Shown here: positions 33,355-36,735 of the stretch, piece after piece
Numbering within the stretch: position 1 is the first letter of the stretch
Layout of the letters: every line of letters begins with the position of its first letter
Assembly: GCF_012395815.1 (NCBI RefSeq)
Contig: NZ_JAAZQQ010000001.1
Location: 124,001-188,000 of the forward strand
Source: Roseicyclus persicicus
Lineage (GTDB): Bacteria > Pseudomonadota > Alphaproteobacteria > Rhodobacterales > Rhodobacteraceae
Direction of reading: 5' to 3'
DNA length: 64,000 nt
Translations under genes and position numbers: made by a program
The notes under the pieces: model-generated
Seen by the model: the letters and a program-made list of their open reading frames with translations, nothing else
Databases searched by the model: none
What the model was told of the DNA's origin: nothing

Positions 33355-34920
33355 TCAGCCGACGTCCTTGTAGGACACTTCCTTGGCGTCCGAGCCCAGC
33401 TTTTCGCGCCGCACGATCAGCCGGTTGAGCGCGTTCACATAGGCCTTGACGCTCGCCACGATGGTGTCGGTGTCGGCCGCCTGCCCGGTGGCGATGCGCC
33501 CGCCTTCCTCGATCCGCACCGTGACGGTAGCCTGGGCGTCCATGCCTTCGGTCACCGCGTGCACCTGGTAGAGCTGCAGCACCGCGTCGTTGGGATAGAG
33601 CGCCTTGACCGCGTTGAAGGCCGCATCGACCGGCCCGTCGCCCTGCGCCGTCGCCTGGCGGTCGCGGTCGCCGATGCGCAGGGTGATGTCGGCCGACTGC
33701 GGCGCCTCGGTGCCGCAGATCACGCGCAGGAACCTGAGTTCCAAGTGATCCTTGCTGCCGGCGGCTGCGGCATCGGTGACGAGCGCGATCAGGTCGTCGT
33801 CGAACACCTCCTTCTTGCGGTCGGCCAGCGCCTTGAACCGCACGAAGAGGTCGTTGAGCTGGTTGTCGACCATGTCGAAGCCGAGGTCCTTGAGCTTCGC
33901 GCGCAGCGCGGCCCGGCCCGAGTGCTTGCCCAAGGGAAGCGAGGTGCCCGACAGGCCCACGTCCTCGGGGCGCATGATCTCGAAGGTGTCCTTGGATTTC
34001 AGCATCCCGTCCTGGTGGATGCCGGACTCGTGCGCAAAGGCGTTCTTGCCCACGATCGCCTTGTTCGGCTGCACCACGAAGCCCGACACGGTCGAGACCC
34101 GGCGCGAGATGTGCATGATCTTGGTCGTGTCGATGCCGGTGGTGTAGGGCATGATGTCGTGGCGGACCTTGAGGGCCATCACGACCTCCTCCAGCGCGGT
34201 GTTGCCCGCGCGTTCGCCGAGGCCGTTGATCGTGCACTCGATCTGCCGCGCGCCGCCCGCCACGGCCGCCAGCGCGTTGGCCGTCGCCATGCCGAGGTCG
34301 TTGTGGCAGTGGGTGGCAAAGACCACGTCGTCGGCGCCCGGCACCTCGGCGATCAGGCGGCGGATCAGGTCGGCGGATTCCACCGGCGCGGTGTAGCCCA
34401 CGGTGTCGGGGATGTTGATGGTGGTGGCGCCCGCCTTGATGGCGATCTCGACCACGCGCTTGAGGTAGTCCCATTCGGTCCGGGTCGCGTCCATCGGCGA
34501 CCACTGCACGTTGTCGCAGAGGTTGCGGGCGTGGGTCACGGTCTCGTGGATGCGCTCGGCCATCTCGTCCATGGTCAGGTTCGGGATGGCGCGGTGCATC
34601 GGCGAGGTGCCGATGAAGGTGTGGATGCGCGGCGATTTCGCGTGGCGCACGGCCTCCCAGCAGCGGTCGATGTCCTTGAGGTTGGCGCGCGCGAGGCCGC
34701 AGATCGTGGCGTTCCGCGTCTGGCGGGCGATTTCCGAGACGGCGGCGAAATCGCCCTCGGAGGCGATGGGAAAGCCGGCCTCGATGATGTCGACGCCCAT
34801 CTCGTCGAGCAGGCCGGCGATCTCCAGCTTCTCGTCGTGGCTCATGGTGGCGCCGGGCGACTGTTCGCCGTCGCGCAAGGTGGTGTCGAAGATGAGGACG
34901 CGGTTCTTGTCGGTGGTCAT
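33355..34920 (-). CDS. leuA: 2-isopropylmalate synthase
   Basis: LeuA condenses acetyl-CoA with 2-oxoisovalerate, the first committed step of leucine synthesis. The 521 residues hold the HMGL-like barrel with DTTLRDGEQSPGATM near residue 10, the metal-binding FATHCHNDLGMATANAL and HESGIHQDGML, and a C-terminal regulatory domain for leucine feedback (GDGPVDAAFNAVKALYP). The ATG has an AAGGA site seven bases upstream, and that site is complementary to leucine codons in an upstream leader peptide, pointing to attenuation as well as feedback control. leuB and leuD lie about 29 kb away. Confidence 0.97.
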   Translation of the reverse strand: MTTDKNRVLIFDTTLRDGEQSPGATMSHDEKLEIAGLLDEMGVDIIEAGFPIASEGDFAAVSEIARQTRNATICGLARANLKDIDRCWEAVRHAKSPRIHTFIGTSPMHRAIPNLTMDEMAERIHETVTHARNLCDNVQWSPMDATRTEWDYLKRVVEIAIKAGATTINIPDTVGYTAPVESADLIRRLIAEVPGADDVVFATHCHNDLGMATANALAAVAGGARQIECTINGLGERAGNTALEEVVMALKVRHDIMPYTTGIDTTKIMHISRRVSTVSGFVVQPNKAIVGKNAFAHESGIHQDGMLKSKDTFEIMRPEDVGLSGTSLPLGKHSGRAALRAKLKDLGFDMVDNQLNDLFVRFKALADRKKEVFDDDLIALVTDAAAAGSKDHLELRFLRVICGTEAPQSADITLRIGDRDRQATAQGDGPVDAAFNAVKALYPNDAVLQLYQVHAVTEGMDAQATVTVRIEEGGRIATGQAADTDTIVASVKAYVNALNRLIVRREKLGSDAKEVSYKDVG

Positions 34921-34927
34921 GGCTCTG

Positions 34928-35015
34928 TCCTTAGCGGGGTGTCTCCTGGGTGTCTCCGGCGCTGTCCCTCCTCTGAGCGGTCGCGCCGACAGGCACGCTC
35001 AGAGGCGGCTAAGGA
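34928..35015 (-). promoter_or_regulatory. leuA leader RNA: nested stems, one masking the ribosome binding site
   Basis: Two perfect stems are nested. The outer stem pairs GCTAAGGA (34928-34935, containing the leuA Shine-Dalgarno) with TCCTTAGC (35008-35015, in the last leucine codons of the leader peptide). The inner stem pairs CGCTCAGAG (34971-34979) with CTCTGAGCG (34996-35004, spanning the leader stop codon). No U tract follows, so a plain intrinsic terminator is not seen. A ribosome stalled at the Leu run would keep the 5' arm from pairing and free the leuA start site. Mechanism inferred. Confidence 0.65.
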
Positions 35016-35112
35016 GCAGCAGGCCAAGCAGGGCGGGGCGCGCCAAGGGCGCGACACGACCTGACGGCGCGGAGGGCGCGGCAAGGGTCGTGGTATGGGC
35101 CTGCATGGTCAT
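34999..35112 (-). CDS. leuL: Leucine leader peptide for leuA
   Basis: A 37-codon frame upstream of leuA, starting MTMQAHTTT and ending with the leucine-rich run LLGLLLLSRL before TGA; eight of the last ten residues apart from Gly, Ser and Arg are leucines encoded by CTG, CTT, CTC. That density just before nested RNA hairpins is the signature of amino-acid attenuation leaders. The ATG at 35112 is 8 bases after a TAATTT that lies 17 bases from GTTTTC, so the transcript may be leaderless; an in-frame ATG at 35106 is the alternative. No Shine-Dalgarno is evident. Attenuation of leucine genes is known in alphaproteobacteria; this instance is read directly from sequence. Confidence 0.72.
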   Translation of the reverse strand: MTMQAHTTTLAAPSAPSGRVAPLARPALLGLLLLSRL

Positions 35113-35197
35113 GGCGCGGAAAATTACCGATCCGGGCGGGTTTGAAAACCCCCTTTCGGGTCAGGGCCGTTGACCGATCCCCGGGGGCGGCGCGGCC

Positions 35198-35992
35198 CTA
35201 CACCAGCCCCAGTTCGGCGTCCGAGGCGATGCGGTCGTACTTGTCGCGCGGCGGCATCGGCCGGTCGCGCCAGTGCGGCGAAAAGGCAAAGCTCGAGGTG
35301 CTGCGCCCCTCGGCCAGCGCGCCGTTGCCCAGCCCGACCGCGTAGTCGTAGTAGAGCTTGACGATCTCCTCGCGGCTGACCTGTTGCGCGGCGGGATGGG
35401 ACAGGCAGGCGTCGCGCCAGCGCCGGACGCAGTCGAAGGCGGCGTCCGCGGGCAGGTCGAACCCCTCGTAGTAGTCGAGGAACCAGAACCGCATGAACAT
35501 CGGCGTGTAGACCAGATCGGCCAGCCCGTAGTCCCTAAACAGGAAGGTGCCGCCGGGATTGTGATGGCGCAGGAAATCGTCGAGCCAGGCGTAGTGGTCC
35601 ACCAGCGTCTGCCGGAGCGCCGGCGCCTTGTCGCGGTCGCGGTTCATCACCATCAGGTAGCCCGCCATGGTGAAGGCCCCGGCGCGGTCGATCAACAGCC
35701 GCTCCACCCCGCGCTCGTAGGGGTCGGCGCGGGCGATCTGCGGGTCGGGAAAGGCCTCCTCGATGTAGCGCAGGATGACGAGGCTTTCCTTCAGCACCCG
35801 GCCGCCGCCGAGGTCCATGATCGGCAGGGCGGTCGTGCCCCGGGACAGCGCCAGCAGGGCGGGGTCGCGGGGCCGGGTGATGTCGACCACGCGGAACTCG
35901 ACGGCGTCGCGCAGGCCCTTCAGCTCCAGCAGGATCTCGACCCGCTGCGAGAACGGGCAGACGGGGATGTGGTGGATGACGGGTTTCGACAT
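35198..35992 (-). CDS. Glutathione S-transferase family protein
   Basis: A 264-residue GST-like protein. The N-terminal thioredoxin-fold domain has the active-site region HIPVCPFSQRVEILLELKG, with a Cys in the position used by omega/beta-type GSTs, and the cis-Pro glutathione-binding motif TALPIMDLGGG followed by LKESLVILRYIEE. The C-terminal helical domain covers residues about 90-225. The tail after residue 230 is polar and not part of the fold. Physiological substrate unknown. Confidence 0.87.
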   Translation of the reverse strand: MSKPVIHHIPVCPFSQRVEILLELKGLRDAVEFRVVDITRPRDPALLALSRGTTALPIMDLGGGRVLKESLVILRYIEEAFPDPQIARADPYERGVERLLIDRAGAFTMAGYLMVMNRDRDKAPALRQTLVDHYAWLDDFLRHHNPGGTFLFRDYGLADLVYTPMFMRFWFLDYYEGFDLPADAAFDCVRRWRDACLSHPAAQQVSREEIVKLYYDYAVGLGNGALAEGRSTSSFAFSPHWRDRPMPPRDKYDRIASDAELGLV

Positions 35993-36069
35993 GGGCGCCT
36001 CCTGTCGCGGCAGTTTGGCGCGCGGGGGCGGATTTGACCAGCGCGCGGTCCGGCATAGCTGCCCCCGTC

Positions 36070-36735
36070 ATGGAAAACGCACTGGTGATCGGGGCCTCGG
36101 GCGGCATCGGCCGCGCCCTGGCCGAGGAATGGCGCGCCCGCGGCGCGCAGGTGACGGGGCTGTCGCGGTCGGGCGACGGGCTGGACGTGACCGATGCGGC
36201 CAGCGTCGCGCGGGTGATGGGCGGGCTGGAGGGGCCCTATGACGCGGTGTTCGTGTCGGTGGGCATTCTGGCCCCGCCCGGGGTCGCGCCGGAAAAGCAG
36301 CTGTCCGCGCTCGACGCCGGGGCGATGGCGCGCGTCTTTGCCGTGAACACCATCGGCGTTGCCCTGGTCCTGTCGCACCTGCCGCGGCTCCTGCCGCGAA
36401 AGGGGCGGTCGGTGACGGGTGTCCTGACCGCCAAGGTCGGCTCCATCGGCGACAACCGGCTGGGCGGCTGGTATTCCTACCGCGCGTCGAAGGCGGCGCT
36501 GAACCAGATCGTCCATGGCGCCGCCATCGAGATCGGGCGCAGCCACCGCGAGGCGGTGATCGCGGCGCTGCATCCAGGCACGGTCGCCACGGCCTTCACC
36601 GAGGGCTACAACCCGGGCTACGGCAAGACGACGCCGCAGGACGCCGCCCGGGCGCTTGCCGACGTGATGGCGGGCCTGACCCCGGCGCAGTCGGGCGGGT
36701 TCTACGACTACGCCGGGCAGGAGCTTCCGTGGTGA
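36070..36735 (+). CDS. SDR family oxidoreductase (C-factor-like)
   Basis: A 221-residue short-chain dehydrogenase with NALVIGASGGIGRALAEEW at the N-terminus, an atypical NNAG region (VFVSVGIL) and the catalytic YRASK near residue 138. Proteins of this shape resemble the C-factor/CsgA subgroup. The ATG at 36070 gives a start right at the nucleotide-binding strand. Its stop overlaps the GTG of the photolyase gene, so the two are coupled; similar SDR-photolyase pairs occur in related bacteria as far as I recall. Confidence 0.84.
   Translation: MENALVIGASGGIGRALAEEWRARGAQVTGLSRSGDGLDVTDAASVARVMGGLEGPYDAVFVSVGILAPPGVAPEKQLSALDAGAMARVFAVNTIGVALVLSHLPRLLPRKGRSVTGVLTAKVGSIGDNRLGGWYSYRASKAALNQIVHGAAIEIGRSHREAVIAALHPGTVATAFTEGYNPGYGKTTPQDAARALADVMAGLTPAQSGGFYDYAGQELPW

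Follow-up and report, generated by a model that had tools for sequence, protein, structure and literature searches.

Introduction

Attenuators of leu and trp genes carry tandem regulatory codons in a leader peptide, and the position of the ribosome on these codons selects the fold of the RNA; the corresponding Rfam family of the leu leader is named leu_leader. A passage of PMC6123439 describes the control of Escherichia coli leu as a leader-peptide transcription attenuator. The LEU element of Actinobacteria follows another plan, in which a leader with a run of Leu codons is combined with a base stem between Leu codons and the Shine-Dalgarno (SD) sequence, a pseudoknot and an alternative hairpin; its mechanism was left open, and Seliverstov, Putzer, Gelfand and Lyubetsky (2005) favoured a protein as the regulator (PMC1262725). 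Here we analyse a leader element upstream of leuA in the alphaproteobacterium Roseicyclus persicicus. It lies in a window of 64,000 nucleotides (nt) of contig NZ_JAAZQQ010000001.1 (positions 124,001 to 188,000 of the forward strand), and all coordinates below are counted from the first letter of that window.

Our analysis points to a leucine-responsive, ribosome-mediated translational attenuator of leuA, a reading to which we assign a probability of about 0.72. It builds on the anatomy of the sequence, on conservation and covariation among relatives and on a helix that, in several loci, tracks the SD of a different first gene. Of the known systems the LEU element of Actinobacteria comes closest, closer than the terminator attenuation known from Proteobacteria. 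As in the LEU element, the window has an open reading frame (ORF) with a run of Leu codons upstream of leuA. Its Leu codons and SD form a base stem (7 nt before the leuA ATG) which covaries in relatives. Inside this stem lies a pseudoknot that is found in 78/78 loci and is not significant in the window alone, and an alternative hairpin shares the base stem (UGCC/GGCG, with one-sided changes). The phylum is different and so is the LeuA type, since the LeuA of the window scores far under the TIGR00970 cut-off. With E. coli-type leu/trp attenuators the locus shares a leader with tandem regulatory codons; unlike them it has no U tract and no Rfam match, and its proposed target is the initiation region. 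A second point of comparison is trpL/peTrpL of Sinorhizobium meliloti, whose attenuator RNA begins at the leader AUG according to sections of PMC7298713 and PMC10117765. As described there, it is an alphaproteobacterial leaderless leader, as predicted for the window, but acts by transcription attenuation and responds to tryptophan. In the literature covered, in which wide topics were sampled partly and the main candidate, Vitreschak et al. 2004, was not included, neither a LEU-type element nor a leuA leader that masks the SD was found described for Alphaproteobacteria. What appears new here is the extension of the LEU-type element to another phylum; the kind itself was already known. Subsequent papers from the Moscow group of Vitreschak et al. 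may touch on the subject.

Results and discussion

The leuA leader of the window

The element consists of the following parts, in which P1 is the stop-codon hairpin, P3 the helix between Leu codons and initiation region, and PK the pseudoknot helix.

33355..34920, minus strand: leuA, 2-isopropylmalate synthase, the putative regulated gene (Pfam HMGL-like 2.9e-91, LeuA_dimer 2e-35)
34999..35112, minus strand: leader peptide ORF, MTMQAHTTTLAAPSAPSGRVAPLARPALLGLLLLSRL and stop, 37 codons, with the C-terminal end LLGLLLLSRL
35008..35015, minus strand: P3 5' arm, TCCTTAGC, within the Leu codons, a perfect complement over 8 base pairs (bp) of GCTAAGGA
34996..35005, minus strand: P1 5' arm, CCTCTGAGCG, holding the UGA stop, a perfect 10-bp complement of the 3' arm
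34992..34995, minus strand: UGCC, pseudoknot loop 1 or 5' arm of an inner hairpin with the partner GGCG (34987-34984)
34983..34989, minus strand: PK 5' arm, UCGGCGC, in the P1 loop, pairing with GCGCCGG
34970..34979, minus strand: P1 3' arm, CGCTCAGAGG, pairing with the P1 5' arm
34956..34962, minus strand: PK 3' arm, GCGCCGG, 7 nt 3' of P1
34928..34935, minus strand: P3 3' arm, GCTAAGGA, holding the apparent leuA SD, 7 nt 5' of the leuA ATG

The leuA ATG lies at 34920, so that 78 nt between the end of the leader and leuA are untranslated. The encoded protein has the HMGL-like and the LeuA allosteric domain. The P3 5' arm TCCTTAGC presumably resembles the anti-SD of 16S rRNA. Minimum-free-energy folds of the leader and of a 116-nt core hold both P1 and P3, nested, with fold z values of -2.06 and -2.57; the core folds at -50.6 kcal/mol (z -2.57). 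The leader region shows neither a terminator-like site nor a U tract. A scan of 34000-36500 with Rfam 15 down to E 5 gave no match at the leader element and two matches elsewhere, far under their gathering scores.

A sequence-only reading of the window had described most of this anatomy. The 37-codon leader ending in LLGLLLLSRL directly upstream of leuA, the perfect complementarity of Leu-codon TCCTTAGC to the SD-holding GCTAAGGA, the nesting of two compatible stems and the lack of a U tract all stand. Its inner stem is indeed perfect and spans the stop codon, yet it comprises 10 bp and not the 9 that had been given. PK, the alternative inner hairpin and the -10-like hexamer, from which a leaderless leader mRNA is predicted (see below), go beyond that reading.

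Scored in the window alone, P1 is matched by 22/5000 shuffles and P3 by 275/5000. Since shuffles reach the scores of P3, P1 and also PK, chance would be possible in a single sequence, and the case for the element rests on comparison.

Conservation in Rhodobacterales

A LeuA search yielded 80 leuA loci from named genomes. Within the genus, 13 genomes including that of the window were searched, and 12 of them gave a leuA locus. The closest named locus among the matches listed, from which records nearest to the window genome have perhaps been omitted, belongs to a Roseicyclus metagenome-assembled genome with 95% LeuA identity. After two spurious pattern fits had been set aside by inspection, the pattern of the stop-codon hairpin was present in 75/79 readable named loci and in 12/12 same-genus loci. 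A covariance model of the element core (R1) was built from 77 rows. It also recovers three of the four misfits to the first pattern (L020, E 1.6e-7; L096, E 0.0015; L093, E 0.004); the fourth, L086, stood outside the R1 scoring. On the window genome R1 finds the element at E 2e-17, the next match being the opposite strand of the same site at E 1.2.

A threshold of E 0.001 gave exactly one R1 match per genome in 196/196 sampled Rhodobacterales genomes, representing 87/87 genera. Wherever the gene 3' of the element was read, i.e. in the LeuA-derived loci and in four more of the 196 genomes, it was leuA. A structured RNA is thus present throughout the sampled Rhodobacterales. In a class-wide draw, 21/289 genomes matched R1; 16 of these lie outside the family, and all 16 matches are upstream of leuA.

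For the counts in this study L002-L005 (not leuA) and L087 (without a start) were set aside. L017 (duplicate element of L006) and the close same-genus loci L006-L008, L010, L011 and L013-L015 were left out of the swap, folding, U-tract (Rhodobacterales), arm-position, leader-codon, SD-string and fixed-gap -10 counts. L047 and L066, without a clear leader ATG, were left out of the promoter logo, the folding and some leader counts. L065, in which the P1 3' arm was misplaced by the script, was left out of the alignment and nearest-neighbour rows and kept in the PK swap. The P3 swap tests and the stalled-ribosome folding were run without the eight loci that carry an inserted ORF.

Covariation of P1, P3 and the pseudoknot

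Across 76 distinct sequences, 98.4% of the P1 cells are paired, with two-sided changes at 3/10 pairs. The inner hairpin UGCC/GGCG is paired in 92.8% of cells, its changes being one-sided only. The joint covariation score of both hairpins is higher than in any of 500 shuffles or any slid version.

Because MAFFT fails to align the PK 3' arm, partner swapping took the place of column counts in the tests of PK and P3. These tests treat rows as independent, and the version with nearest LeuA neighbours corrects for relatedness only partly. For P3 the mean helix score of own partners was 17.5 versus 14.2 for swapped partners (z 11, n=70 Rhodobacterales loci), and a control stretch of the leader 24 nt further upstream scored 15.1 with its own partner. 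Swaps between nearest LeuA neighbours differing in the 5' arm gave 16.7 for own and 14.6 for exchanged partners (p 7e-4, n=69; 40 better, 17 worse, 12 ties).

The P1 loop pairs with a site 4-13 nt 3' of P1 in 78/78 non-redundant loci (mis-parsed L065 among them). Own PK partners scored 20.4 on average versus 18.1 for permuted ones (sd, standard deviation, 0.32; z 7), and the region further downstream scored 10.9. The nearest-neighbour version gave 20.5 versus 19.3, with 41 better, 28 worse and 8 ties (p 0.017). Arm variants among the loci include GGTGCG/CGCACC and CCGGCGGC/GCCGCCGG.

The target of P3

Eight loci carry an ORF between leader and leuA. In four of them (L021, L023, L032, L060) a cupin gene of 117-118 amino acids comes first (Pfam Cupin_2 for the L021 protein), and its SD lies within the P3 arm or directly next to it, with the start of the cupin gene 5-8 nt after the arm. 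L026 has a 55-amino-acid ORF first and the P3 arm at the SD of that ORF, as in the cupin-first loci. Among the other three, the pairing is weak in L033 and L039 and lies inside the inserted ORF in L085. The shift of the P3 partner to the SD of an inserted first gene argues that the target is translation initiation of the first gene. As side observations, the ORF of L033 (41 amino acids) has a C-terminal end resembling that of the cupin protein and is maybe a remnant, and in L136 and L139 a coding sequence similar to the cupin gene precedes leuA.

The same evidence bears on transcription attenuation, in which P1 would act as an intrinsic terminator that fails to form during a stall on the Leu codons. 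A leader, a stop-codon hairpin and regulatory codons are an attenuator-like layout, and one distant alphaproteobacterial locus (L264) does have a T run behind its stop-codon hairpin, so that its leader ends in an ordinary intrinsic terminator. The window, however, lacks a U tract, and at least 4 T in the 8 nt after P1 are found in only 2/78 Rhodobacterales and 7/70 other alphaproteobacterial loci. A terminator would also leave unexplained both the covariation of P3 with the initiation region and its move to the cupin SD, and we regard this explanation as distinctly unlikely for the window.

Rho may also be considered. It could terminate in or before leuA when translation is blocked or when the ribosome leaves the leader, with the structure mainly setting Rho access. 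The 78-nt untranslated stretch between leader and leuA in the window would suit such a scheme, and Rho-dependent termination would fit the structure if it followed, secondarily, on blocked translation. As an explanation of the element it appears unlikely to us, for in several loci P3 is tied to the SD of whichever gene comes first, which points to initiation as what is primarily controlled.

The Leu codons

The last nine leader codons hold 5.0 Leu on average (n=78 loci). Counted from the stop, Leu occupies codon -4 in 78/78 loci, -5 in 71, -6 in 74 and -7 in 63. All four CTN codons are used at each of the positions -7 to -4, with even usage at -7 and -6. Codon -4 is CTT or CTA in 75/78 loci, which fits what the P3 arm would require. 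In the leader Leu codons of relatives the first two positions are conserved and the wobble position is variable. Since Leu is retained although the third letter of its codons varies, the peptide or its codons are under selection. For the same reason a riboswitch without peptide sensing was rejected.

A related proposal takes the fold as the binding site of a regulatory protein or a small molecule and the Leu codons as incidental. It can draw on the high conservation of UGAGCGUGCC, on the compact pseudoknot with its base stem and on the mutations of Leu codons in Streptomyces coelicolor, which were reportedly weak or inconsistent in effect (PMC1262725). The retention of Leu codons with varying third letters speaks against it, and the conserved loop letters can be explained by the inner hairpin with its high proportion of paired cells. 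We consider a binding site of this kind very improbable.

Proposed mechanism and stalled-ribosome folding

In the translational attenuator that we favour, the transcript would begin at the leader AUG and translation would start from its extreme 5' end. With ample leucine the ribosome would reach the UGA and leave, P1 would fold around the stop codon and its loop would pair downstream to form PK. This compact P1/PK scaffold would place the Leu-codon stretch, i.e. the P3 5' arm, on the leuA SD, and initiation would be blocked. With charged leucine tRNA in short supply, stalling at any one of the four tandem Leu codons would place the ribosome over the P3 5' arm; a stall at the later tandem Leu codons would cover P1 too, and the leuA initiation region would remain open. 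Translation, and not coupled Rho-dependent termination, would be the first step affected.

Folding was computed with a masked ribosome footprint of 30 nt, the SD segment being defined as -16..-4. With the A site at codons -21, -18, -15 and -12, the SD openness of the window rises from 0.06 to 0.56, 0.63, 0.60 and 0.63. Across 68 loci the expected P3 pairs fall from about 9 to less than 1 under the four stalls. The segment -30..-16 opens in 51/49/56 and closes in 6/6/2 of these loci under stalls -21/-15/-12.

Several observations weigh against this mechanism. The masked folds were computed without the pseudoknot. In the window, placing the ribosome at the stop codon yields an SD openness of 0.64, roughly that of the stalls, and the switch must therefore depend on ribosome dwell time. 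Over the 68 loci and the same three stalls, SD openness goes up in 33/28/28 and down in 17/15/13, and mean start-codon openness does not rise. A stall at the earlier Leu codons (residues 10, 23, 28, 29) would leave P3 free. Strong P3 pairing over the last Leu codons is found in only 37/70 loci, in 28 of which the arm ends 14-29 nt before the ATG. Of all 70 Rhodobacterales loci, 39 have an arm whose end lies 16-22 nt 5' of the ATG, upstream of the usual SD position, and no more than 29/76 loci have a canonical SD-like string ahead of leuA. PK is GC-rich, and its score in the window alone is not significant (807/5000 shuffles reach it). The three two-sided pairs of P1 and the inner hairpin are likewise reached by 86/500 shuffles, and slid versions have 3-6. 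Finally, the mutations of Leu codons in the S. coelicolor leuA leader are reported to have given results inconsistent with classical attenuation (PMC1262725). The SD count (29/76) and the result for the stop-codon ribosome have slightly lowered our confidence.

As to the position of the arm, it ends 7-9 nt before the ATG in the 4 loci retained from the window's genus and 8-11 nt in 4 Paracoccus loci. In the loci inspected, a purine-rich stretch follows the distal P3 arm (16-22 nt) on its 3' side. Within the 37 strong-P3 loci the spacing between PK and the P3 arm is more variable (sd 14, range 3-60) than that between arm and ATG (sd 5.6, range 6-29).

Leucine attenuation at translation initiation, as put forward in the sequence-only reading, is supported by the conservation of Leu codons and stems, the covariation of P3 and the masked folds, as far as sequence comparison and modelling can indicate. 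The comparison with relatives that had been suggested there found the Leu codons and both stems conserved and P3 covarying. Masking of the SD in the literal sense is clear for the window but does not extend to all relatives, since the masked-fold results for the SD are mixed across loci. It fits the window's genus, Paracoccus, the cupin-first loci and plausibly 32/68 other alphaproteobacterial loci (see below), but not the 39/70 Rhodobacterales loci with an arm at 16-22 nt.

Other Alphaproteobacteria

Outside the window's family 106/118 leuA places were retrieved in a class survey. In 70/106 a leader end and a CCCCTGA/TCAGGGG-type hairpin were recognised, and 36 lack it by pattern. The 70 were chosen by sequence pattern and hairpin score; in L212 and L229, which are among them, TGG stands at the stop position. 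Most leader ends are variants of L(L/R)L(S/T/I)(R/C)P before the stop. For the P3 test two duplicates were removed (70 to 68 loci). Own partners scored 15.6 versus 13.3 for swapped ones (z 7.3, n=68), with 13.9 versus 13.4 in a control stretch, and the arm ends 6-13 nt before the ATG in 32/68 loci. Judged by sequence, a simpler P1 plus P3 version of the element precedes leuA in these 70/106 loci. A pseudoknot general to Alphaproteobacteria was rejected, since outside the family the helix between loop and downstream region equals its control (13.2 vs 13.6, n=70). Single cases with a pseudoknot include L178 and L197 (TTTTGGC/GCCAAAA) and loci of Rhizobiaceae.

The latter, in S. meliloti, Shinella and R. 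leguminosarum, belong to the other LeuA type and carry a Leu run, a GCCGGG/CCCGGC hairpin and a GAGGAGC/GCTCCTC pseudoknot, together with a possible pairing between Leu codons and SD region (L267, L268; L270 by eye). Against shuffles, PK gave 0.006 and 0.016, and P3 gave 0.01 in Shinella and 0.26 in S. meliloti, the last being not beyond shuffles. The S. meliloti leuA leader also has TATAGG 7 nt 5' of its ATG. A separate observation concerns a Sphingomonas plasmid leuA (L269), where an alphaproteobacterial leader of the LRLIRP kind stands before the other LeuA type, which suggests that enzyme and leader have been re-combined.

Actinobacteria

The leuA loci of Microbacterium, Nocardia, Nonomuraea and Tsukamurella show the same order of parts by eye. 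R1 places the Nocardia and Microbacterium elements correctly, but weakly (E 0.05). Tested singly, the actinobacterial helices are mostly not beyond shuffles (PK 0.05-0.37, P3 0.01-0.54), and the comparison is therefore carried by the published description. Rhodobacterales have the stop codon within the 5' arm of P1, whereas the four actinobacterial loci have it in the loop of P1 or at the loop's edge. A part of PMC8079986 describes LeuL1 of Streptomyces lividans, MRFGLLLLSCRGEGL and stop, as leaderless and without a typical terminator. At the Leu run this leader and that of Microbacterium (MQFGLLLLSCRDESSD and stop) are very similar. An excerpt of PMC4974804 reports an upstream ORF before leuA in M. 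abscessus by ribosome profiling. On reading the sequence upstream of a plasmid-borne Streptomyces leuA (L102), no such element was seen.

One leaderless Leu leader device, with Leu codons as the anti-SD strand, a stop-codon hairpin and repeatedly a pseudoknot, may control leuA translation across Alphaproteobacteria and Actinobacteria. It would have persisted when the LeuA type was replaced (Rhizobiaceae, Sphingomonas), when another gene was inserted in first place and when the hairpin became a true terminator or arose from one; we see the odds for this wider view as even. The same plan in Rhodobacterales, with covariation and switching of the SD partner, makes translational attenuation by a leader peptide directly testable, with Cereibacter sphaeroides, Phaeobacter and S. 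meliloti as tractable laboratory organisms. Our results also add an order-wide structured RNA without an Rfam 15 match.

Promoter-like signals and leader start

Two promoter-like hexamers precede the leader.

35143..35148, minus strand: -35-like TTTTCA (consensus of relatives CTTTTCATT)
35121..35126, minus strand: -10-like TAATTT, 8 nt 5' of the leader ATG

A -10-like hexamer stands 7-8 nt 5' of the leader ATG in 74/84 loci, the gap having been picked for the best match. With the gap fixed at 6-9, at least 4/6 matches to TATAAT are found in 67/76 loci versus 7.6% of control positions. Aligned on the -10, the -35-like logo of relatives reads T/T/T (0.95/0.90/0.76) followed by C (0.75). No promoter in the window passes a sigma-70 consensus scan, and the -10 is visible only in the family logo. 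An SD-like string 5' of the leader ATG was found in 0/76 Rhodobacterales loci. Because of the -10-like spacing and the lack of an SD-like string before the leader ATG, the leader mRNA is predicted to be leaderless, with a probable transcript start at 35112 or within about 2 nt of it. A leuA transcript starting 3' of 34999, which the sequence-only reading had named as evidence against its proposal, is disfavoured by the -10-like hexamer upstream of the leader ATG. Further upstream of leuA, on the same strand, lies a GST-family gene.

In Rhodobacterales a conserved CATATC (His-Ile) occupies codons 6-7 of the leader, at about +15 to +20 relative to the ATG and distant from the Leu codons; the logo gives A 0.76, T 0.67, A 0.86, T 0.81 and C 0.64. 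Its role might be that of a promoter-proximal pause or of a peptide signal, both of which are guesses. The counterpart in the window is CATACC at 35097-35092, and the S. meliloti leader has a similar GCACATA.
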